Part shown: positions 260 to 42,601 of the stretch, piece by piece
Numbering within the stretch: position 1 is the first letter of the stretch
How the letters are laid out: each line of letters starts with the position of its first letter
Assembly (NCBI GenBank): GCA_016180285.1
Contig: JACPBO010000009.1
Span: 1 to 52,146 of the forward strand
Reading direction: 5' to 3'
DNA: 52,146 nucleotides
Origin: Candidatus Woesearchaeota archaeon
Lineage (GTDB): Archaea; Nanobdellota; Nanobdellia; Woesearchaeales; JACPBO01
Notes under the pieces: generated by a model
Databases searched by the model: none
Seen by the model: the letters and a program-made list of their open reading frames with translations, nothing else
Told to the model about the DNA's origin: nothing
Translations under genes and position numbers: made by a program

Positions 260-1354
260 ATGAAAAGGACGAAAATGAAGAAGGCAGATGAGTATATAAA
301 AATCATTAAAGATAACGGGTTGGTTCATGCCAGCTCAAGAAAACTTCCATTAATAACTGCCAGTTGCATATTTTTTGGCTATAATAATATCCTTAAAAAA
401 GAAATAGGATATTCTTATGGGACTATGGGAAACATAGGGAAAGGTGACATAGCTTATTTCTTGATTAATGAAGAAAAGGCAGGAAATTTGTTTAATAAAA
501 AAATTAAAGTGAGCGAGTTGAGATCCCTGAATAAAAAATTAAAAGCCCTCTTCGATAAAGACACTAATCTTTTTGAGCAAATTAAAAAAGAAAGAGATAT
601 TTTCAAAGTTTTAAAAGTTGCATTCCAAATATATCCCAGGGTTCTTGCTCAAATTGGATTTTTTAATTCAATAATGAGATATGTAAAAAATGACGAAGAC
701 CGGGCCAAAAAATTGGGAAAATTCACTTATTTGATTGCTAAAGATAAAGATGCTGTTGCTAACCTGATATACCTTAAAATAGAGCCGTTGATTAAAAAGT
801 GCGCAGAAAAAATCGGGAAATCTATTTTTGAAGGGGATTTATTAAGGTATTTGACCTTGAAGGAATTTAAGAAATTTTTAAAAGAGAAAAAAATCTCTAA
901 GGCCCAATTATCTGAACTATCAAAAAGAAGAAGAGGCTATTTATATCTTTTTCACAAAAATAAGGATAACATTATTACAGATAAGGAAATTGTTAATGGT
1001 GTTTACGAACAATTCATTAACGCTAAAAGCAATATGAGTGTTTTAAAAGGAACAACTGCTTATCCTGGAAAGGTTGTGGGGAAGGTTTATAAAGCGTTCC
1101 ACGGAGTAAAAACCGCCAAACCGGGATATGTGCTAGTAACAACTATAACAAAACCGGAAGATACACCTCTCCTTAGTAAATTCGCAGCTATAATCACAGA
1201 TGAAGGAGGTGCGCTTTCCCATATTGCGGTTGTGGCCCGAGAACTCAAAATCCCCAGCATTATGAGCACTAAAATAGCTACAAAGGTTTTAAAGGATGGA
1301 GATTTAGTTGAAGTTGATGCAGACAAGGGTATTGTGAGAAAGATTACTAAATAG
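260..1354 (+). CDS. Phosphohistidine swivel-domain protein, paralogue 1
   Basis: The last ~95 residues form a PEP-utilising mobile (swivel) domain. It carries TDEGG-x3-H with the presumed phosphoacceptor His321, followed by the conserved tail DGDLVEVDADKGIVRKI. In PEP synthase, PPDK and rifampicin phosphotransferase this His carries phosphate from an ATP-grasp domain to the substrate site. The first ~265 residues are a divergent helical region without a recognised family. Around 195-235 there is an LxxxEL-like segment followed by basic RRR, as in the central domain of rifampicin phosphotransferase-like proteins. No ATP-grasp and no PEP barrel are present, so it would need the ATP-grasp protein encoded at 3502 as phosphoryl source. 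It is more AT-rich than its downstream paralogues and lies 12 nt before the next gene. Substrate unknown. Confidence 0.85.
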   Translation: MKRTKMKKADEYIKIIKDNGLVHASSRKLPLITASCIFFGYNNILKKEIGYSYGTMGNIGKGDIAYFLINEEKAGNLFNKKIKVSELRSLNKKLKALFDKDTNLFEQIKKERDIFKVLKVAFQIYPRVLAQIGFFNSIMRYVKNDEDRAKKLGKFTYLIAKDKDAVANLIYLKIEPLIKKCAEKIGKSIFEGDLLRYLTLKEFKKFLKEKKISKAQLSELSKRRRGYLYLFHKNKDNIITDKEIVNGVYEQFINAKSNMSVLKGTTAYPGKVVGKVYKAFHGVKTAKPGYVLVTTITKPEDTPLLSKFAAIITDEGGALSHIAVVARELKIPSIMSTKIATKVLKDGDLVEVDADKGIVRKITK

Positions 1355-1366
1355 AAGGCAATAAAC

Positions 1367-2740
1367 ATGAATAAAAAAGAAGAATGGTCTTTAATTGCGA
1401 AGCGGGATAATGTCCCTTTGCTTCCCGTATGGTATAAATTTGAAATTCTCGCTGGCCAGCAGGCAATAAAACTATACTCAACTGGCGTTCCTGGGTTGCA
1501 GGTATGGAATAAGCGTGAATATGTCTGTTATTTTCGTACTGATGAATATCGGAAGGCTGCGGAATATGTCACCCAACTTTTACTTTCTAAAAAAGCATAT
1601 GCGCATATTAAAAAACTTGAACAAGCATGTAAGACAGCCAAGCATGCAGCCTCGCAAGCCACGAATATATCTCAGTTATCAGATAAACAACTTATAAATT
1701 TGCACACAAAGATTATTGGAATGTATAAAGAGATGTTTCTATATGGTTTTATTACGTGGTGTACGCAGGCTATTCACAGCAAAGCTTTAGAGATACTCAG
1801 AAAAAGAAGGATATCTGGTTTGGAAACAGCGTTATCTATATTGATTCAGCCGGATAAAGAGACGCCAACTACGCAGCGTGCAAAAGAAATTAGCAGATTA
1901 GCCAAAAAATATGGCAAAGATCCTGCAAAATCACAGCAGCTGAACAAAGACATTAAAGCTTTTATTGAAAAATGGGGTTGGGTTGGCTATGATTACGCCG
2001 GTCCATTAATCACAACAAAAGAGGTATTGGATGAAATCCGCAATACAGAAGCCCCAAAACCTGCCGCATCAAAACAAAAGATCCTATCTAAGCTAAGTAA
2101 ATCAGAGCAGCAAATCTTTAATGTATTGTCTTTAATAGCATATACTAAAGATTTAAGGAATACAAGTGATGATTATGTGCATTTTCAGCTGGATAAATTA
2201 TATCGTGAGCTTGCTAAGAGGCATAATTGCTCGTCGCAGGATGTGCGTTACCTATTGCCTGCTGAATTAACTAAGTTTATAGTAAATAAAAAGGATGTTA
2301 AGCTCAGACAAAGATTTCTCTTAGCTTATACCTGGCCGCTTAACTCAGAATTCTATACGGGCGTCAAGGCGCGCACATTATTCAGCCAAAGCATACAGGC
2401 AGAAAGCGCTTCTAAAACCACAAAAATATTGAATGGCATGGCGGCCTGTGCAGGAAAAGCAAACGGCATTGCCAGGATTATCAGAAAATTCCCGGATTTG
2501 AAAAAAGTAAAGAAAGGAGATATCCTGGTTGCAAGCATGACTTCTCCAAGATACACGGGTGCAATAGCCAGAGCTGCTGCAATAATAACAGATGAAGGCG
2601 GCATTACCAGCCATGCTGCTATAATAGCCAGGGAGATGCAGAAGCCTTGCATCATCGGCACTAGAATAGCTACAAAAGCACTTAAAGACGGCGATTTGGT
2701 TGAAGTTGATGCAAATAAGGGCATTGTTAGGATATTGTAA
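1367..2740 (+). CDS. Phosphohistidine swivel-domain protein, paralogue 2
   Basis: The C-terminal ~100 residues match the swivel domain of the PEP-utilising family, with DEGGITSH (His416), AIIAREM and the ending DGDLVEVDANKGIVRIL. The N-terminal ~350 residues are helical and differ from paralogue 1. A central segment with an Arg-rich helix and L-x2-AEL (about 265-310) has the spacing seen in the substrate domain of rifampicin-phosphotransferase-like proteins and recurs in paralogues 3 and 4. The first ~50 residues, rich in Trp and Tyr, have no clear counterpart in paralogue 1. It is read with its neighbours on one strand. I infer a substrate-specific half of a split phosphotransferase; the acceptor molecule cannot be told from sequence. 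Confidence 0.85.
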   Translation: MNKKEEWSLIAKRDNVPLLPVWYKFEILAGQQAIKLYSTGVPGLQVWNKREYVCYFRTDEYRKAAEYVTQLLLSKKAYAHIKKLEQACKTAKHAASQATNISQLSDKQLINLHTKIIGMYKEMFLYGFITWCTQAIHSKALEILRKRRISGLETALSILIQPDKETPTTQRAKEISRLAKKYGKDPAKSQQLNKDIKAFIEKWGWVGYDYAGPLITTKEVLDEIRNTEAPKPAASKQKILSKLSKSEQQIFNVLSLIAYTKDLRNTSDDYVHFQLDKLYRELAKRHNCSSQDVRYLLPAELTKFIVNKKDVKLRQRFLLAYTWPLNSEFYTGVKARTLFSQSIQAESASKTTKILNGMAACAGKANGIARIIRKFPDLKKVKKGDILVASMTSPRYTGAIARAAAIITDEGGITSHAAIIAREMQKPCIIGTRIATKALKDGDLVEVDANKGIVRIL

Positions 2741-2767
2741 CCACTTATTGGTGATATAAAAACGAAA

Positions 2768-2777
2768 GATTTAAATA
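2768..2777 (+). promoter_or_regulatory. TATA-like box before the HAD-like gene
   Basis: GATTTAAATA lies about 23-32 nt before ATG 2800, which implies a nearly leaderless transcript. It suggests that the HAD-like gene can start a separate transcript inside the cluster. Confidence 0.45.
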
Positions 2778-2799
2778 GTCTAACATCTTCCCATATGAT

Positions 2800-3435
2800 A
2801 TGGCAAAAGCAAAAATTTACGATTATAATGGGCCAATAATGGATATTGCTCCATTTTTCGATTTTCTTAAAGCCAAGGATCCGAAGCTTTATTTTGACTA
2901 TTGTATTTTAGGAAAAAAGGATAGAAGCAAGAAAGACCAATATAGGCCTGCTGTAGTGGAATTATATGAAGAGGCGATACAAAAAGGGCTGTTTCCTGCC
3001 AAGTTAATTCCCGGCATAGAGGAAAGGCTAAATAAGGATTTGGCAGAAGGCTATAAACCTCTTATATTTACAACTGTGCCGCATGATACTATGGCATCAC
3101 AAACAAAGGAGACTGGAATCAGCAAAATTTTTCCTAACGATTCTATAATAACACTTACCGATATCATAAAATATGGCGGCCTCAAAGAAGGAATAGGCAA
3201 AGAGAACCCTGAAGTTTATCAGCAGCTTATCAAATATTTATCGGGTTTTGAGAGCCTAGAAACTTATGTTGATGATTCTGAACAAAGGCTATCAGCAGCA
3301 CATGAAGCAAATATTTCCTTTAAAGACACAGGAAAGGGAATAAAGAGACTGTACCTTTTTAATCCCGAGGCAGAAAAGTCGCCAATGAAAAAAGAATTCT
3401 ATACTTTGGTAAATAACCCGATGCATGTTGAGTAA
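2800..3435 (+). CDS. HAD-like hydrolase family protein
   Basis: A 211-residue protein with the layout of the haloacid dehalogenase superfamily. Motif I is YDYNGPI (Asp8, with the usual second Asp replaced by Asn10). A hydrophobic strand ending in Thr-Thr near 90 is a motif II candidate, and VDDSEQ at 157-162 is a motif IV metal-binding pair. Most HAD phosphatases have DxD in motif I and use the second Asp as general acid. DxN makes ordinary phosphatase activity less certain but leaves a nucleophile. It sits between the swivel-domain genes and the ATP-grasp gene, so it may process the phosphorylated product, which is inference from context only. It has its own TATA-like box. Confidence 0.7.
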   Translation: MAKAKIYDYNGPIMDIAPFFDFLKAKDPKLYFDYCILGKKDRSKKDQYRPAVVELYEEAIQKGLFPAKLIPGIEERLNKDLAEGYKPLIFTTVPHDTMASQTKETGISKIFPNDSIITLTDIIKYGGLKEGIGKENPEVYQQLIKYLSGFESLETYVDDSEQRLSAAHEANISFKDTGKGIKRLYLFNPEAEKSPMKKEFYTLVNNPMHVE

Positions 3436-3501
3436 AAATATTGGGCAAAACAGAAAGCTTTATAGACAAAAAGAATGTAATCTCCTTAAAGCGAGGATCC
3501 A

Positions 3502-4440
3502 ATGACAAATATAAAGCTGTTTAAGGACATAAGGAAAGAAGACATTCCTATTGTCGGAGGAAAGGCTGCAAATTTAGGCGAACTGGCAAGCATGGGGCTT
3601 CCTGTTCCTGATGGGTTTGTAATTACAGCAATGGCATATGAGAGATTTGTAACAGAAGCAGGAATTAATGAGAAGATCCAAAAAATGCTTAAAGCCCTTG
3701 ATGTTGAAAATACCGGGCAGCTGAATAAAACAGCAGAAAAAGTAAGAGAGCTTATTATGAAATCCCGTATGCCAAAAAATCTTGTTGAGGACATAAAAAA
3801 GCAGTATTCTGCAATGAATGATTTTGTTGCAGTAAGAAGCTCGGCAACAGCAGAAGATTTGCCGGATGCAAGCTTTGCAGGCCAGCAGGAAACCTTTTTG
3901 AATGTTAAGGGAGAAAAAGAGGTTTTGGAAGCTGTGCAGAAATGCTTTGCCTCATTGTTTACGCCGAGGGCGATCTATTACAGGGTTAAAAATAACTTTC
4001 CGCATGAAAAGGTGTTTTTAGCTGTTGTTGTCCAGAAGATGGTCAATGCAGACAAGGCAGGAGTCATATTTTCTGTAAACCCTGTAACTCAAAATAAGGA
4101 AGAGATAATTATTGAAGGGGCTTACGGGCTTGGAGAGGCTGTTGTTCTTGGATCATTGACTCCCCATTCCTATGTAATTGACAAAGGAACGCACAAGATA
4201 AAGAGCAAAAACATATCAAAGCTGGAGTGGGGCTACTATAGGAGCAAAAGAGGGAAAACAGAAAAAAGAAATATAAGCCACGGGCATATTGAAGTTCTGA
4301 ATGAGAATGAAGCCAAAGGGCTGACAAAGTTCACAAAGGAAATCGAAAAGCATTACGGCATTCCAATGGACATTGAATGGGCAATTGAAGCAGGGAAGAT
4401 CTACATACTGCAGGCAAGGCCTGTGACTGCATTAGGATAG
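3502..4440 (+). CDS. Stand-alone PEP synthase/PPDK N-terminal ATP-grasp protein
   Basis: All 312 residues correspond to the nucleotide-binding domain of PEP synthase, PPDK and rifampicin phosphotransferase. Visible hallmarks are GGKAANLGEL (19-28), VAVRSSATAEDLPDASFAGQ (109-128), the FSVNPVT segment near 190, and DIEWAI (290-295) followed by LQARPVTAL, which supply the ATP and metal ligands. In full-length enzymes this domain transfers the beta-phosphate of ATP to a swivelling His. Here the protein stops exactly at the domain end and lacks the His domain and PEP barrel. Four separate swivel-domain proteins flank it (260, 1367, 4472, 5770), so it is the obvious shared phosphoryl donor. An out-of-frame relic of a swivel-domain tail follows its stop codon, which suggests that it arose by deletion from a longer gene. 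Confidence 0.9.
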   Translation: MTNIKLFKDIRKEDIPIVGGKAANLGELASMGLPVPDGFVITAMAYERFVTEAGINEKIQKMLKALDVENTGQLNKTAEKVRELIMKSRMPKNLVEDIKKQYSAMNDFVAVRSSATAEDLPDASFAGQQETFLNVKGEKEVLEAVQKCFASLFTPRAIYYRVKNNFPHEKVFLAVVVQKMVNADKAGVIFSVNPVTQNKEEIIIEGAYGLGEAVVLGSLTPHSYVIDKGTHKIKSKNISKLEWGYYRSKRGKTEKRNISHGHIEVLNENEAKGLTKFTKEIEKHYGIPMDIEWAIEAGKIYILQARPVTALG

Positions 4441-4475
4441 ATGCAAATAAAGGAATTGTAAGGAAAATAAAGTGA
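4440..4475 (+). pseudogene. Relic of a swivel-domain C-terminal tail
   Basis: From the last base of the ATP-grasp stop codon, a different frame reads DANKGIVRKIK and then TGA. This is nearly identical to the invariant tail of the swivel-domain proteins in this cluster (DANKGIVRIL, DADKGIVRKITK). It has no start codon and lies out of frame with the ATP-grasp gene. It is best explained as the remnant of a swivel domain once fused to, or lying just after, the ATP-grasp domain. The TGA overlaps the GTG start of the next gene. Confidence 0.75.
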
Positions 4476-5767
4476 AAAAAGATATAAAAGAAAAGATTTT
4501 ATCCTTGTCGTGGAAGCCCTGGCTAGAGAGGCATTTCAGCCCATTTACATTGTCTTTATTTCAGGATGGAATTAAGAAAGAATTTTTCAAAAAAATAGGG
4601 GTTTCTGGCGTAGAATGCAGGGCAATACTTCAGCAGAATCATTTTTGGTACAAAATCCAGGAAGTTTGGGATGACATGGCAAAAAAGCTGGAGATATACC
4701 TGAAGAAGCATTCCATATTTGACGTAACAAAATCGCTGAAGAAATTCCACGACGAAAAGAAAAAGAGGATAAAATGCCTTGCAAAAAAAGATGGGGACAC
4801 GATAGCACAGTTTGAAGAAATTTACAATATACTTACAACCGTTACAACCTTTATATGGCTGGCGCATGGGCTTGAAGAAGTATATCAGAAGAGACTTAGC
4901 AAAGAAGTGCCAAAGTATGTAAAGGAAAATGTTGATGGCTTCATAGGTGACGCAAGCTTTCCATCAAAGAAGAATTCTCATGCGCTTATGGAAGCGGCAC
5001 TAAGAAAAGGCATTTCTCCAAAAAGAGTCTCAGAAGAATTTGGATGGCTCAAGATGAGAGACTTTGATGATGAGCCATTCAGCGAAGAGGACATGAAAAA
5101 ACTAAAGAAAGAGATTAAGTCTGATGAACTGCATAAGAAAGTAAAGATACCAAAAGAACTGAAAAAATTATTCAAGGAAGTAGAGGAGCTTGTGTTCTTC
5201 AGGACAGCCAGGACAGATGTATTCTATGAACTGATGTGCCTCTCAAGGCCAGTATTCAAAAAAGTCGCTGATTACTATGAGATTCCTTATTCGGATATGA
5301 AGCACTATACTGTGCAGAGCCTGATAAGAAAAAAGCCTAAAAGATACGGGAAGAGCTATACGCTTGCATGCTATGGCAATGACAGCAGTTTCAGTGAAGA
5401 GCCAATACTGAAGGAGAGAAAGAACCAGAAGGCGGATTATGTCGAGGGTATTGTTGCTTGCAAAGGAAATGTGAAAGGAGCAGTAAAAATAGTCCTTAAA
5501 GTATCGGAAATCGACAAAGTCAAGCAAGGAGATATACTTGTTACTCAGATGACATTTCCGGCGTTTGCGCCAGCAATGGCGAAGGCATCAGCTTTTGTTA
5601 CAGACGAAGGCGGCCTTACATGCCATGCTGCAATTGTCGCAAGAGAAATGAATAAGCCGTGCATAATAGGAACTAAAATTGCAACCAAGACATTCAAGGA
5701 TGGAGATTTGGTAGAGGTTGATGCAAACAGGGGAGTTGTAAAAATAATCAAGAGGAACGCATCATAA
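4472..5767 (+). CDS. Phosphohistidine swivel-domain protein, paralogue 3
   Basis: The C-terminal ~95 residues form the swivel domain: VTDEGGLTCH with His385, AAIVAREMNKPCIIGTKIAT, and the tail DGDLVEVDANRGVVKII. The first ~290 residues are helical and charged. They include FFRTARTDVFYE (about 247-258) and, some 25 residues on, a YSDMKHYTVQSL helix followed by RKKPKR. The same order, an Arg-containing helix then an L-x2-EL-like element then a basic segment, appears in paralogues 2 and 4. The chosen GTG start is the only one that keeps the full helical region, and it follows the relic tail directly. It lies 2 nt from the next gene, so co-translation is likely. I infer a substrate-plus-His module that uses the ATP-grasp protein just upstream. 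Confidence 0.85.
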   Translation: MKKDIKEKILSLSWKPWLERHFSPFTLSLFQDGIKKEFFKKIGVSGVECRAILQQNHFWYKIQEVWDDMAKKLEIYLKKHSIFDVTKSLKKFHDEKKKRIKCLAKKDGDTIAQFEEIYNILTTVTTFIWLAHGLEEVYQKRLSKEVPKYVKENVDGFIGDASFPSKKNSHALMEAALRKGISPKRVSEEFGWLKMRDFDDEPFSEEDMKKLKKEIKSDELHKKVKIPKELKKLFKEVEELVFFRTARTDVFYELMCLSRPVFKKVADYYEIPYSDMKHYTVQSLIRKKPKRYGKSYTLACYGNDSSFSEEPILKERKNQKADYVEGIVACKGNVKGAVKIVLKVSEIDKVKQGDILVTQMTFPAFAPAMAKASAFVTDEGGLTCHAAIVAREMNKPCIIGTKIATKTFKDGDLVEVDANRGVVKIIKRNAS

Positions 5768-5769
5768 CT

Positions 5770-7167
5770 ATGGCAAAACTTCAAAATAAAAATTGGTATC
5801 ATGACGTTCCGAATCAGAGAGTTATGTTGTATATTATGAGCATTTTGCTCGCCTGCTTAAAAGAGCATGACAGCTACTATAATAGAAAAATCAGAAACTT
5901 GATGTTTAGCGTTACTAATGTGTACTCTGTAAGAGCCTGTTACTCAGAGCCTGATTTAAGAGAAGGCGCACAGAAATTATTGGCTAAATGCATGAAAAAT
6001 CCTGAATTTCTGAAGAAAACTGAAAAGATCATGATGGAACGAGGCAATCAATTGCTAAACTCTGCAAGAAAAGTTGAAACTATAAAGGACAGAAGCATAA
6101 AATCATTGAGTGTGCTGTTCAAAGAAATTTATGATAGCTATGTCAGGTACTTCGCCATAGTCATGATCCCCGAACTTTCCATTGAATTTGTTGAGAAAGA
6201 TTTTGATGAAGAGATAAAAAAACAGTTTCGGGAAGAATATGGCAAGATAATAAGCCTGCTTTCAATTCCCAGAGACTCTTTTTTGCTGAGGGAAGAAAGA
6301 GAGTTGCTAGCAATATCAAAAAAGCCAAATTTCAGGCAACTTCTCAAAGATCACGTAAAGAAGTATTTTTGGTTAAACAACAATTACGTAGATACAAAAT
6401 ACTTGGATGAGGGATTTTTCCTTAATAAGCTCAAGTCATTAAAACTAACTGAAGAGCGCAATATAGCTAATAAGCACATTTTTTTAAATTCATTAGAAGG
6501 CAATAAATATAAACGGCTTAAAACCCTGGCCAACATGGTGGAATTCATAACCTTTGTGCAGGATACAAGGAAAAGGACAGCTATAGAAGCCAGCTATTAC
6601 ATAAATGAACTTTTTGATGAGATGCGCGCGAAGAAGGGGCTGAGTAAAGAAGAAATATCGCTGTTGACTGGCCAAGAGCTAATCCAGTTAGATAAAATTA
6701 CAATCTCAAGGAAAGAGTTAATTAATAGAAAGAAAAAAATTGTATGCTATTACCACAATGGCAATTACGAAATGCGCACAGGAGATGATGGATGTAAGTT
6801 TGAACAGGAAATTGCACCCTTTAGTATATCTGGTCAAACGACTTTCTCTGGCAGGCCTGCTTATGGGGGTAAAATAAGGGGCGCAGTAAATGTTATTTTA
6901 AGCGTAAAAGAGCTACACAAACTAAATGATAAAGAAATACTTGTAACATCAAATACAACGCCAGATTATGTTCCATTTCTAAAAAAAGCAAAAGCAGTAA
7001 TTGCAGAAAAAGGAGGCATAACCAGCCATGCAGCAATAATCAGCAGAGAGATGAAAATACCCTGCATTGTTGGAATTAAACATATAACCTTGGCCCTGAA
7101 GACTGGCGATGAAATTGAAGTTGATGCTTATAAGGGTGTTGTAAAAATAATCAAGCGCAACACATAA
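5770..7167 (+). CDS. Phosphohistidine swivel-domain protein, paralogue 4
   Basis: The swivel domain occupies the last ~100 residues: AEKGGITSH with His420, AAIISREMKIPCIVGIKHIT, and the tail GDEIEVDAYKGVVKII. EKGG replaces the more usual DEGG, but the catalytic His is kept. The N-terminal ~360 residues are helical. VQDTRKRTAIEASYY (about 260-274) and LLTGQEL (about 298-304) match the central region of paralogues 2 and 3, supporting common descent of the whole proteins. The first 100 residues are specific to this copy. It is the last gene of the cluster and is followed by a TATA box and tRNA-Ser. Confidence 0.85.
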   Translation: MAKLQNKNWYHDVPNQRVMLYIMSILLACLKEHDSYYNRKIRNLMFSVTNVYSVRACYSEPDLREGAQKLLAKCMKNPEFLKKTEKIMMERGNQLLNSARKVETIKDRSIKSLSVLFKEIYDSYVRYFAIVMIPELSIEFVEKDFDEEIKKQFREEYGKIISLLSIPRDSFLLREERELLAISKKPNFRQLLKDHVKKYFWLNNNYVDTKYLDEGFFLNKLKSLKLTEERNIANKHIFLNSLEGNKYKRLKTLANMVEFITFVQDTRKRTAIEASYYINELFDEMRAKKGLSKEEISLLTGQELIQLDKITISRKELINRKKKIVCYYHNGNYEMRTGDDGCKFEQEIAPFSISGQTTFSGRPAYGGKIRGAVNVILSVKELHKLNDKEILVTSNTTPDYVPFLKKAKAVIAEKGGITSHAAIISREMKIPCIVGIKHITLALKTGDEIEVDAYKGVVKIIKRNT

Positions 7168-35460: not shown

Positions 35461-36864
35461 TCATATCTTCTTCCACCTTACGCCTTCAGGAGTGTCCATC
35501 AGTTGAATTCCCTTTTTGAGAAGTTCCGCCCTTATTCTGTCTGCTTCTGCCCAGTTCTTGTTTTTTCTTGCAGTTTCCCTTTCATCTATCAGTTTTTTAA
35601 CTGCAGAAGGCAGCGCTTCCTCTTTTTCTTCCATGATTCCCAGAACTTTGTCAGCTGAAAAAATGAAATCAAGGGCATCTTTTGCATCTTTTTCGCTTAT
35701 TTCCCTGTTTGCCAGCAAAATATTTATCTCTCTCATGAAATCAAAAAGAGAAGCCAATGCAACTGAAATGTTCAAGTCATCGTCCATTGCAGACTCGAAC
35801 TCTGTTTTCGCTCTTTTTATCAGATTCTTTGCCTTTTTGCTACTTTCTTTTTTTACCTCTTTATGATCTTTTAAGCTCAAAACAAAATCCCTGAATTTTT
35901 CAACTGTTGATTCTGCTGCCTTTAATTCGTCAAATGTAAAATTAAGCTGCTGCCTGTAATGATTGGAAATGAGCAAATACCTTATTGCCTTCGGCTTATA
36001 GCCTTTGCTTATGACATCTCTCAAAGTGTAGAAATTCCCCAATGATTTTGACATCTTTTTTCCTTCTACAAGAAGCCACTCATTATGGAGCCAGTAATTC
36101 ACGAATTTTTTTCCTGTTGAACCTTCGCTCTGCGCGATCTCATTCTGGTGATGGGGGAAGACAAGATCAATGCCGCCGGTATGGATATCAAAAGTTTTTC
36201 CCAAATATTTCATTGACATTGCCGAGCATTCCAGATGCCAGCCCGGCCTTCCTTTTCCAAGCTCTGTCTGCCAGTAAACATTTCCGTCATGCTCGTCCCA
36301 TGCTTTCCACAGGACAAAATCAGATGCCTCTTCTTTTGCATATTCATCCTGCTTGACTCTTGCTCCGGCTTTTAATTCCTCCACCTTGATATGCGCAAAC
36401 TTTCCGTAATCCTTGAATGTTGAAATGTCATAATAGACTGATCCGTCTTCGCCTTTGTAAGCATGGCCTTTTTTCAGCAATGCCTTGACTAGCTCAACCA
36501 TTTCCCTTATGTGCTTTGTGGCTTCAGGATAGTATTCTGCCTTTTCAATGTTTAATGTTTCGAGATCTTCAAAAAATATTTTCTTGTATTTTACTGTGAA
36601 TTCGTCCAATGTTGTGCCTTCTTTCTGGCTGCCCTTTATTGTTTTATCATCAACGTCTGTGAAATTCATTACCTGCTTTACTCTGAAGCCTTTGTACTCA
36701 AAATACCTTCTTAATATGTCTGCGGTAAGAAAAGCCCTGAAATTTCCGATATGGCCGTAATCATAGACGGTCAAACCGCAACTATAAATTCCAACTTCTT
36801 TCTTGCTTATGGGCCTGAATATCTCTTTTTTCCTTGTTGATGTGTTGAAAAGCTTCAATGGCAT
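35461..36864 (-). CDS. cysS: Cysteinyl-tRNA synthetase
   Basis: The 467 residues show class I CysRS features. YSCGLTVYDYGHIGNFRAFL holds the zinc Cys and the HIGN form of the HIGH motif. GWHLECSAMS supplies the second zinc ligand. FPHHQNEIAQSEG follows with His ligands, and KKMSKSLGNFYTL is the KMSKS loop near 267-279. It charges tRNA-Cys directly, so this organism need not rely on the SepRS route. The GNAT gene upstream overlaps its start by 10 nt. This supports the idea that Cys-tRNA levels could be read by the poly-Cys leader at 41093. Confidence 0.96.
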   Translation of the reverse strand: MPLKLFNTSTRKKEIFRPISKKEVGIYSCGLTVYDYGHIGNFRAFLTADILRRYFEYKGFRVKQVMNFTDVDDKTIKGSQKEGTTLDEFTVKYKKIFFEDLETLNIEKAEYYPEATKHIREMVELVKALLKKGHAYKGEDGSVYYDISTFKDYGKFAHIKVEELKAGARVKQDEYAKEEASDFVLWKAWDEHDGNVYWQTELGKGRPGWHLECSAMSMKYLGKTFDIHTGGIDLVFPHHQNEIAQSEGSTGKKFVNYWLHNEWLLVEGKKMSKSLGNFYTLRDVISKGYKPKAIRYLLISNHYRQQLNFTFDELKAAESTVEKFRDFVLSLKDHKEVKKESSKKAKNLIKRAKTEFESAMDDDLNISVALASLFDFMREINILLANREISEKDAKDALDFIFSADKVLGIMEEKEEALPSAVKKLIDERETARKNKNWAEADRIRAELLKKGIQLMDTPEGVRWKKI

Positions 36865-40541: not shown

Positions 40542-40670
40542 GGATATTAAATTTTAGCCATCAGAACGGATTCTTAAATTGAGGATGTTAAAAAATAAAT
40601 CTTACAAAAGAGCAGATAAATGCTGGTCAAAATCAAAAACTATAAAAACAACATAAAATAAATAATTGCC

Positions 40671-40976
40671 ATGATATTAATCTATATGACCTGCAGGGAT
40701 GAAGAAGAAGCAAGAAAGATCTCCATGCACCTGGTCAAGAACAGGCTTGCAGCATGCACGAATATGTTTCCGATCAGAAGCATGTACTGGTGGAAAGATA
40801 AGATAGAAGAAACAGAAGAATATGCTGTAATAGCAAAAACAATAGATGAAAATTATGAGAAAATAAAGAAAGAGATCAAAAAGATCCATTCCTATGAAGT
40901 GCCGTGCATTATGAAGATTAATGCAGACGTCAATGAGGAGTACGGAAATTGGATCAAAAAAGAGACGAAAGTATAA
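40671..40976 (+). CDS. cutA: CutA1 divalent-cation tolerance protein
   Basis: The 101 residues match CutA1: the opening YMTCRDEEEARKISMHLVKNRLAACTN, the core SMYWWKDKIEETEEYAVIAKT, and HSYEVPCIMKINADVNEEYGNWI at the end. CutA1 forms very stable trimers related to the PII fold. A role in copper or other metal tolerance is proposed, but its biochemical task is uncertain. It is a single gene followed by the cysteine island. Confidence 0.93.
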   Translation: MILIYMTCRDEEEARKISMHLVKNRLAACTNMFPIRSMYWWKDKIEETEEYAVIAKTIDENYEKIKKEIKKIHSYEVPCIMKINADVNEEYGNWIKKETKV

Positions 40977-41060
40977 ACTTCTTACCGGCGAAGTTCATAT
41001 TTCGCTGAATCCAGAAAAGCAACAAGAGATTTTACGATTTTACGATTTTATAATAGAAAT

Positions 41061-41069
41061 ATTTAAATA
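41061..41069 (+). promoter_or_regulatory. TATA-like box of the cysteine island
   Basis: ATTTAAATA (41061-41069) lies 24-32 nt before ATG 41093. The spacing implies transcription starting at or near the leader ORF's first codon, so the leader would be translated first. An 8-bp GATTTTAC direct repeat (about 41033-41049) lies just upstream. Confidence 0.55.
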
Positions 41070-41092
41070 TTAGTAATAAATTACTCCCAAGT

Positions 41093-41146
41093 ATGGCGAC
41101 TAAAGTAATGAAGAAAAATAAAAAGTCTGATAGCTGTTGCTGTTAG
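41093..41146 (+). CDS. Putative poly-cysteine leader peptide
   Basis: A 17-codon frame reads MATKVMKKNKKSDSCCC and then TAG. The last three sense codons are all Cys (TGT TGC TGT). It starts about 25 nt after a TATA-like box and lies 160 nt upstream of a cysteine-synthase-like gene. The stop is followed by a weak stem (CGCA 41151-41154 / TGCG 41169-41172) running straight into TTTTT, and by further T-rich sequence. Short upstream ORFs ending in Cys runs are known to regulate cysteine genes in actinobacteria. By analogy, ribosomes stalling at the Cys codons when Cys-tRNA is scarce would change expression downstream. The function is inference; the frame and codons are direct observation. Confidence 0.6.
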   Translation: MATKVMKKNKKSDSCCC

Positions 41147-41215
41147 TTCTCGCATCGTCTGTTACTCTTGCGTTTTTATGTTCTATTGTTTTAAATCTTT
41201 AATGAAATTTTAATT

Positions 41216-41333
41216 ATGGCTGCTAAACTACCCTTTGATCAAGAAAAAAAAGATCAATAATATTGAGGACTTGGTATTGAGAGATATTGTAGACGTAGAA
41301 TTTAAAAATGACATCCAGAACTATTCTATCTGA
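41216..41333 (+). other. Short leader-like ORF with an A8 frameshift tract
   Basis: ATG 41216 lies about 25 nt after a second TATA-like stretch (TTTTAAATC, 41189-41197). It opens a frame reading MAAKLPFDQEKKDQ and ends at TAA 41258-41260. A run of eight A (about 41242-41249) offers a slip point. In the +1 frame the reading continues through INNIEDLVLRDIVDVEF to TGA 41331-41333, which overlaps the start of the cysteine-synthase gene by 26 nt. It may be a second promoter with a coupled leader, a homopolymer error, or chance. Confidence 0.3.
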
Positions 41334-42234
41334 GATTGGGAACACTCCGTTGGTGGAGATTAAGCATTTAAATCCCTATCGAAATAAGGGAATCTCCATT
41401 TATGCCAAATTAGAATACTGTAATCCTGGCGGGTCAGTGAAGGACCGAGCTGTTAAGTACATGGTTTTAGATGCGTTAGAAAAAGGGCAGTTGAGGAACA
41501 GGGTTTTGCTAGATGCGACGTCTGGCAACACAGGCATTGCGGAAGCCATGTTAGCGCACCATTTTGGGCTAGAGGCTCTAATCGTAATGCCTGAAAATGC
41601 AACTAAAGAACGGCGAGATGTTATTCAAAAGTATGGCGCGCTGGTTGAGTTAACTCCTGCTGCAAAAGGCTCGAATGGCGCTATAGAACGAGCGCAGGAA
41701 ATTTACCGGCAAAATCCTCAGAAGTACTTTTATGCGGACCAATACAATAATCCTAATAATATTCGAGCGCATCAAGAGACCACGGGACCCGAAATCTGGC
41801 AACAAACTGCAGGAAAAGTAACGCATTTTGTCGCTTGTGTGGGAACATCTGGAACCGCTACTGGAACCGGATACGCGTTGAAAGAGTTTAATCACCGAAC
41901 TAAGGTTTATGAAGTTCAGCCTAATGATGAGCTACATGGCATTGATGGCTTAAAGTACATGGGCGGCAATACGATTATTCCGAGCTTGTATGATGAGTGC
42001 TTTTTTGATGGATTTTTTGGGGTTAGAACCGAGGATGCGCTGGATTTGGCTAATCTAATTCATTCTGAGGAGGGATATTTTGTGGGGCCTTCTTCGGGAG
42101 CTGCGCTGAAGGGAGCCCTGCATTTAGCAAAACAATTAAATGATATAAAATGTTCTGACGCTGCGATTGTCACTATTTTTCCTGATGGAGGGGAGCGGTA
42201 TTTAAGTACGCACTTTCTAAATCAAAAATCATAA
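41308..42234 (+). CDS. Cysteine synthase / cystathionine beta-synthase-like PLP enzyme
   Basis: The 308 residues are a fold-type II PLP enzyme. LSEIGNTPLVEIKHL is the family opening. NPGGSVKDRAVKYM contains the PLP lysine (about Lys43), TSGNTGIAEAM binds the substrate carboxylate, and GTSGTATGTG binds the PLP phosphate. EVQPNDELHGIDGLKYMG is the usual CysK/CysM/CBS-core region. It could make cysteine from O-acetylserine, O-phosphoserine or other activated serine; no serine acetyltransferase lies nearby. Arginine codons CGA and CGG are frequent here, while neighbouring core genes use AGA/AGG, a sign of lateral transfer. In-frame stop TAG 41296-41298 fixes the start at 41308. Confidence 0.92.
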   Translation: MTSRTILSEIGNTPLVEIKHLNPYRNKGISIYAKLEYCNPGGSVKDRAVKYMVLDALEKGQLRNRVLLDATSGNTGIAEAMLAHHFGLEALIVMPENATKERRDVIQKYGALVELTPAAKGSNGAIERAQEIYRQNPQKYFYADQYNNPNNIRAHQETTGPEIWQQTAGKVTHFVACVGTSGTATGTGYALKEFNHRTKVYEVQPNDELHGIDGLKYMGGNTIIPSLYDECFFDGFFGVRTEDALDLANLIHSEEGYFVGPSSGAALKGALHLAKQLNDIKCSDAAIVTIFPDGGERYLSTHFLNQKS

Positions 42235-42334
42235 ATCTCTTGCGCGCTTTATCACATTCGATTTTATAAAAAAGTAAAAAAATTAGCAATTTCAATTTCA
42301 CAAACTTTATAAAAGAGTGCTTTATCCGAAAGCC

Positions 42335-42601
42335 ATGCCGCATCATATCGCAAGATCAGAAGCTCAGCAGGATACCTGCCTTTACTGCGGCTCTAGCTTA
42401 AAAGATAAAATCTGGGATTCTGAATTCAAAGGCCATCTGCATTACAAAACCCTGATCTGCAGCTGCGGAAGAAAAGCGCATATCAGGATGAATTTCAAGG
42501 GATCAGGTCATGATTCGTGGAACAACGGCAAAGTGGGCGGGGTAATAAGCGGAAACGGAAATAAAGTGAACAAGACAATAGAGCATAGGATGATGGCTTA
42601 A
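42335..42601 (+). CDS. Small zinc-ribbon-like protein
   Basis: From ATG 42335 the protein has 88 residues. CLYCGSSL and, about 25 residues later, CSCGRKAHIRM form a four-cysteine zinc-ribbon-type site; the tail is Gly/Asn-rich (GSGHDSWNNGKVGGVISGNGN). The TATA-like ACTTTATAAAAG (42304-42315) lies 20-31 nt before this ATG, so it is preferred over the in-frame GTG 42317. Its stop codon overlaps the stop of the convergent UMP kinase. Such small zinc ribbons are often nucleic-acid-binding; role unknown. Confidence 0.75.
   Translation: MPHHIARSEAQQDTCLYCGSSLKDKIWDSEFKGHLHYKTLICSCGRKAHIRMNFKGSGHDSWNNGKVGGVISGNGNKVNKTIEHRMMA

Follow-up and report, generated by a model that had tools for sequence, protein, structure and literature searches.

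The gene for a CysM-type cysteine synthase in a Woesearchaeales archaeon is preceded by a short open reading frame (ORF) that ends in three consecutive Cys codons, and comparison with related genomes supports the existence of translated leaders with Cys codons that are associated with cysteine genes. The arrangement is best explained as ribosome-mediated attenuation, with the leader sensing Cys-tRNA and the output lying at early transcription termination, a reading given a probability of roughly 0.65. Its parts differ in strength: the sensing of charged Cys-tRNA by the leader is highly probable, and an output at the level of transcription, which entails the proposed steps of stalling, shielding and termination, is reasonably likely. 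The original prediction, made from this stretch of DNA alone, had recognised the layout of an amino acid attenuation leader, and the Cys-rich ORFs found before cysteine genes in relatives lend that interpretation support.

The leader and its gene in the window

The window, the whole 52,146 nt stretch that was analysed, contains the following features of relevance to the leader, among which the predicted TATA box and 17-codon ORF ending Cys-Cys-Cys-stop are borne out by sequence and translation:

41043-41053, no strand: left direct repeat CGATTTTATAA, 11 bases, bordering the inserted unit
41062-41069, + strand: TATA box TTTAAATA, identified by sequence, starting 31 nt 5' of the leader ATG
41093-41146, + strand: poly-Cys leader ORF MATKVMKKNKKSDSCCC, 17 codons plus stop, identified by translation
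41135-41143, + strand: three consecutive Cys codons, TGT TGC TGT, preceding the stop, identified by translation; proposed stalling site
41147-41157, + strand: post-stop motif TTCT-CG-CATCG (consensus TTCT, 0-5 nt, CATTG), identified by leader comparison
41158-41215, + strand: T-rich tract, a candidate early termination region suggested by the U-rich, G-poor sequence after leaders
41308-42234, + strand: gene for a cysteine synthase of CysM type, presumably the target (best matches PF00291 and NCBIfam cysKM/cysM)
42259-42269, no strand: right direct repeat CGATTTTATAA, the same 11 bases as the left copy
35461-36864, - strand: CysRS (PF01406)

The gene lies 161 nt from the leader ORF and is the sole cysteine synthase gene copy in the 1.33-Mb genome. 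In a profile search it fell into the PALP family (PF00291, E=1e-65) and was closest to the cysKM and cysM models, yet below their curated cut-offs, which agrees with its prediction as a cysteine-synthase-like gene; the CysRS said to be encoded at 35461 was likewise confirmed, by its PF01406 match on the minus strand. No relative of cysE (serine acetyltransferase) was found in this genome (G000) or in many of the leader-bearing genomes, and for this reason a different substrate, for instance O-phosphoserine, may serve these CysM enzymes. The ValRS, SecD and SecF families, together with the TATA promoters and with tRNA-Cys genes containing introns in relatives, suggest an archaeon with a small genome, probably a DPANN member. 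Elsewhere in the window, four genes within 260-7167 (starting at 260, 1367, 4472 and 5770) form a tandem family, all matching one shared part of phosphoenolpyruvate synthase models near the C-terminus.

Three adjacent Cys codons in so short a frame had been thought improbable by chance, and this is upheld by two counts. When the 265 nt upstream of the gene were subjected to 20,000 dinucleotide shuffles, an ATG-initiated ORF ending in Cys-Cys-Cys-stop (CCC-stop) arose in a fraction of 0.0003 (0.03%). Inspection of every one of the 42 TGYTGYTGYTRR sites in the 1.33-Mb genome yielded 32 true Cys-Cys-Cys-stop strings, 29 within long reading frames and three outside them; an in-frame ATG accompanies just one of these three, the window ORF. 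The possibility that CCC-stop is a common genomic word was rejected on these figures. A genome-wide search with the pattern TGYTGYTGYTGYTRR was dropped as too noisy, since most matches examined fall in coding sequence.

Two further features of the region were considered. A second TATA-like site, TTTTAAAT, lies at 41189, with a 14-codon ORF, MAAKLPFDQEKKDQ (41216-41260), 27 nt downstream; a transcript from this site could bypass the poly-Cys leader. The interpretation of 41137-41202 as the frameshifted end of a signal peptide was rejected, T-richness being its sole support.

Leaders in related archaea

An ATG-initiated ORF ending in CCC-stop was found within 450 nt upstream of 17 of 50 cysM genes, a set comprising that of the window and same-order relatives at ≥38% identity, against a mean shuffle expectation of 0.003. 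None was found on the reverse strands of these 50 upstream regions, upstream of 20 weaker, distant paralogues or upstream of 78 bacterial homologues of this cysM, and no other amino acid came close to Cys in the same test (Leu scoring 2). The peptides are otherwise unrelated, with the terminal Cys run alone common to them: examples, each directly followed by the stop, are MLKAVCCC, MINAICCC, MLKAPCCCCC, MAIKIKSCCCC, MQSNIICCC, MKPNQCCCC and MTKTTCCCDCCCC. The run before the stop spans 2-6 codons in relatives and mixes TGT with TGC; some leaders end in CC (G058, G043 and G088), and interrupted runs occur, as in CCCDCCCC and CCCKCC (the latter in G297). The Cys codons are conserved as an amino acid. 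A search with whole-leader DNA across the order returned only short A/T-rich matches, mostly near the promoter, so the leaders share a design rather than a sequence. A recognisable leader precedes only part of the cysM genes, in genomes that are mostly fragmented assemblies. Beyond the order, G362 (same class) has MFKALKCCGCNCSCSQCCCCK followed by stop before tRNA-Cys and cysM, and in G384 an ORF ending NCCF-stop follows a well-placed TATA box.

Some leader loci have individual peculiarities. The very Cys-rich MFKALKCCGCNCSCSQCCCCK of G362 (L304) is followed by a GAGCAG/CTGCTC stem, absent from other leaders, and then by tRNA-Cys and cysM. In G087 (L099), G043 (L100) and also G444 (L302), a second short ORF containing GGYRC (GGTGGTTATCGGTGC), with a good ribosome-binding site, lies just upstream of cysM and overlaps its start, the cysM frame being +1 to the ORF in L099 and L100; a programmed frameshift near a Cys codon or at the stop is possible. 

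The leaders are not confined to cysM. A search for Cys-Cys-stop plus the post-stop motif gave 33 places in 307 genomes of the order, compared with five for the reversed pattern. Thirty places were fetched, many of them inside genes on either strand; the intergenic ones were mostly leaders before cysM, cysE or cysS, with a few inconclusive. Leaders were assigned to cysM (L269, L277, L283, L284, L288, L291), to cysE-like acetyltransferase genes (L268, L285), to CysRS (L278-L281 and L289, with L276 further upstream) and to an unknown gene (L275). A tRNA-Cys(GCA) gene directly follows the leader in G199, G234 (with an intron), G107 (with introns) and G362, and in several genomes cysM, cysE and cysS stand in a row on one strand. 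The comparison of leaders in relatives that the original prediction had proposed revealed many ATG-initiated ORFs ending in CC-stop or CCC-stop before cysM, cysE, cysS and tRNA-Cys, the opposite of the result named there as a refutation, namely that homologous loci would lack any such Cys-rich ORF. At L249 (G275), the leader MPNSTVCCC, with its post-stop motif, lies about 390 nt upstream of CysRS and is followed by a second ORF, MEYKQGDCRCRKIE, whose +1 frame is open past the stop.

Each of the 32 leaders collected has, 28-33 nt downstream of the start of a TATA-like box, an ATG that opens a frame running uninterrupted into the Cys codons, whereas a single out-of-frame ATG has the same spacing. 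The leaders were gathered through the Cys run and stop, or through the motif, mostly without an ATG requirement; they do not represent 32 independent events, since loose TATA patterns were applied and closely related genomes contributed some of the leaders. On the grounds of this in-frame ATG at fixed spacing, the leaders are judged to be translated. The usual archaeal distance from TATA box to start site places the first transcribed base on the A of the leader ATG or immediately beside it, and with the box 28-33 nt upstream the transcripts are probably leaderless, beginning at the ATG itself. Scanning the archaeal loci of this study for a TATA box, an ATG and the motif, with no Cys requirement, returned 24 ORFs, all 24 ending in Cys; the loci were partly gathered through the Cys pattern, and the seven outside that group all end in CCC but derive from cysteine-gene loci.

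The history of the window's own unit can be traced by comparison with a sister species of the same genus (G001). The window has an extra stretch of about 1.2 kb that begins 8 nt ahead of the TATA box, ends 35 nt past the gene and is flanked by the two copies of CGATTTTATAA; G001 lacks cysM, and its DNA runs continuously across the unoccupied site (G001:C6 around 71430, L121), which has a single copy of the repeat (ATGATTTTATAA). Promoter, leader and gene therefore came, or went, as one unit. Insertion in the window's lineage is likelier than loss in G001, as the G001 site sits inside an apparently intact small ORF (about 85 codons), which in the window is disrupted, with only its 3' end kept. 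No plasmid match to the insert was found. In a protein tree, the leader-bearing CysM sequences are spread over more than one clade, well-supported branches requiring at least nine label changes, and are interspersed with bacterial sequences. The CysM of the window is a long branch beside Chloroflexota and Myxococcota, away from other archaeal proteins, a placement to be read with caution. The pattern suggests that Cys-run leaders came to precede cysM genes of several origins.

The post-stop motif and the level of control

Behind the leader stop there is a recurrent layout of 0-4 nt, TTCT, 0-5 nt, CATTG and then T-rich sequence, the whole being U-rich, G-poor and unstructured. TTCT followed by CAT occurs within 24 nt of the stop in 27 of 32 leaders, compared with 0.44 expected by shuffling; because some of the 32 were found via the motif, the unbiased figure is the 14 of 18 seen in the cysM set picked on CCC-stop alone. 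The motif is absent or degenerate in the leaders of G238, G260, G151 and G087. It was rejected as a general gene-end signal, since in the window it accompanies only 2 of 48 ordinary gene ends; the T fraction of the first 30 nt is 0.31 at ordinary ends versus 0.47 after leaders.

A classical hairpin attenuator, consisting of a terminator hairpin with a T run and an alternative pairing, was rejected. No terminator-like hairpin site was found in the leader region of the window, and the consensus structure across the 32 leaders is empty, with no conserved base pairing. The T-rich sequence with a weak stem that had been described there is partly sustained: a 4-bp stem, CGCA/TGCG, is present, yet folding of the leader is no stronger than that of its own shuffles (z = -0.11), and relatives share no structure. 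A T-box or other described RNA family was also rejected, as Rfam models searched against 40600-42400 gave no curated match and two sub-threshold chance matches only.

With no hairpin attenuator, and with tRNA genes among the targets, what remains is transcription termination, or cleavage of the RNA, immediately behind the leader. Early transcription termination is favoured as the output because the first controlled gene is in some cases a tRNA; control of translation initiation alone would not account for leaders that directly precede tRNA genes. Archaeal termination at U-rich sequence uses the ribonuclease aCPSF1/FttA, described as present in all archaeal phyla (PMC8716108), and mutual exclusion of FttA and the ribosome on Spt4/5-bound polymerase has been proposed (PMC8116511, PMC11616081); it is on these two grounds that exclusion of FttA by a stalled ribosome is put forward here.

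Transcription would be expected to start at the leader ATG, and because it probably does, a ribosome could load on the emerging AUG, close behind RNA polymerase. When Cys-tRNA is plentiful, the ribosome would pass the Cys codons and leave at the stop, and the U-rich, G-poor post-stop motif, now bare, would permit early termination, most likely of the U-rich, FttA (aCPSF1)-dependent type. When Cys-tRNA is scarce, the ribosome would stall on the Cys codons, shield the post-stop RNA and keep FttA away, such that transcription would continue into cysM and, in relatives, also into tRNA-Cys, cysE and cysS. The fullest version of this proposal, whereby leaderless poly-Cys leaders of an archaeal regulon would control hairpin-free early termination of cysM, cysE, cysS and tRNA-Cys, with the stalled ribosome masking the motif from FttA, is considered an even bet.

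Among the alternatives, it is improbable, if conceivable, that the leader senses Cys-tRNA through translational attenuation, stalling opening a downstream ribosome-binding site with transcription unchanged. PMC13236596 cites the poly-Cys leaders of mycobacteria as attenuators of translation, and a strong ribosome-binding site follows the leader in several cysM genes; however, tRNA-Cys, which needs no such site, directly follows some leaders, and no conserved structure is present that could hide one, the window leader folding no better than shuffles. Slightly less probable again is control of RNA cleavage or stability, in which a ribosome halted at the Cys codons would protect the motif, a nuclease site, from cleavage. 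In favour are the shortness of the motif, its lack of structure and its place right behind the stop; aCPSF1/FttA is itself a ribonuclease (PMC8716108) and tRNA targets are compatible with this mechanism too, although it is hard to separate from FttA termination, which also cleaves RNA. That the Cys-rich peptide itself acts, for instance as a metal or thiol sensor, in place of its translation, is very unlikely: CCC peptides could bind metals, but only the terminal Cys run is common to the peptides, and it adjoins a conserved RNA motif. That the ORF arose by chance in T-rich intergenic sequence, for which its shortness and the absence of the window's unit from the same-genus G001 might speak, is scarcely credible given the strong enrichment in relatives and the presence in the window ORF of every family feature, namely TATA spacing, frame, CCC-stop and post-stop TTCT..CAT.

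Comparison with known leader systems

In 2005, leader peptides with Cys runs but no terminators were predicted for Actinobacteria (PMC1262725), in keeping with the original statement that poly-Cys upstream ORFs are known from this group, and leaderless polycysteine short ORFs were reported in mycobacteria by Canestrari et al. 2020, as cited in PMC13236596. No description of leader-peptide attenuation in Archaea, and hence no earlier case to contradict the expectation that an archaeal example would be new, was found in the literature searched, most subscription papers lying outside it. What appears to be new is therefore Cys-run leader control in Archaea, of a kind already known from actinobacterial Cys-run leaders.

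The mycobacterial and actinobacterial leaders share with the archaeal ones a short ORF, a Cys run at the stop, a position before cysteine genes and the lack of a terminator hairpin; a leaderless start would probably be a further likeness. By contrast, the archaeal leaders have TATA promoters and a conserved post-stop TTCT..CATTG, and their targets include tRNA-Cys, CysRS and cysE-like genes. None of the 78 bacterial homologues of this cysM has such an ORF, and the two groups are likely to be of separate origin.

Transcription attenuators of the trp, his and leu type similarly have a leader ORF ahead of a pathway gene, with regulatory codons for the amino acid that belongs to the pathway, but the archaeal leaders differ in having neither competing hairpins nor a terminator hairpin. 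The tnaC leader of Escherichia coli is an example of Rho-gated leader control, in which stalling is ligand-driven. Like tnaC, the archaeal leaders have a site free of structure immediately behind their stop codon, where a stalled ribosome is proposed to bar a termination factor; unlike it, they would depend on hungry Cys codons rather than a ligand, and the factor would be FttA. This protein is analogous, not homologous, to Rho (PMC11616081). Through these leaders, the reading of one particular codon run would be coupled to expression of the pathway that it matches, and such a system would make exclusion between the ribosome and FttA on the archaeal transcription complex directly testable. If the proposal is true, they would represent an archaeal counterpart of Rho-gated leader control.
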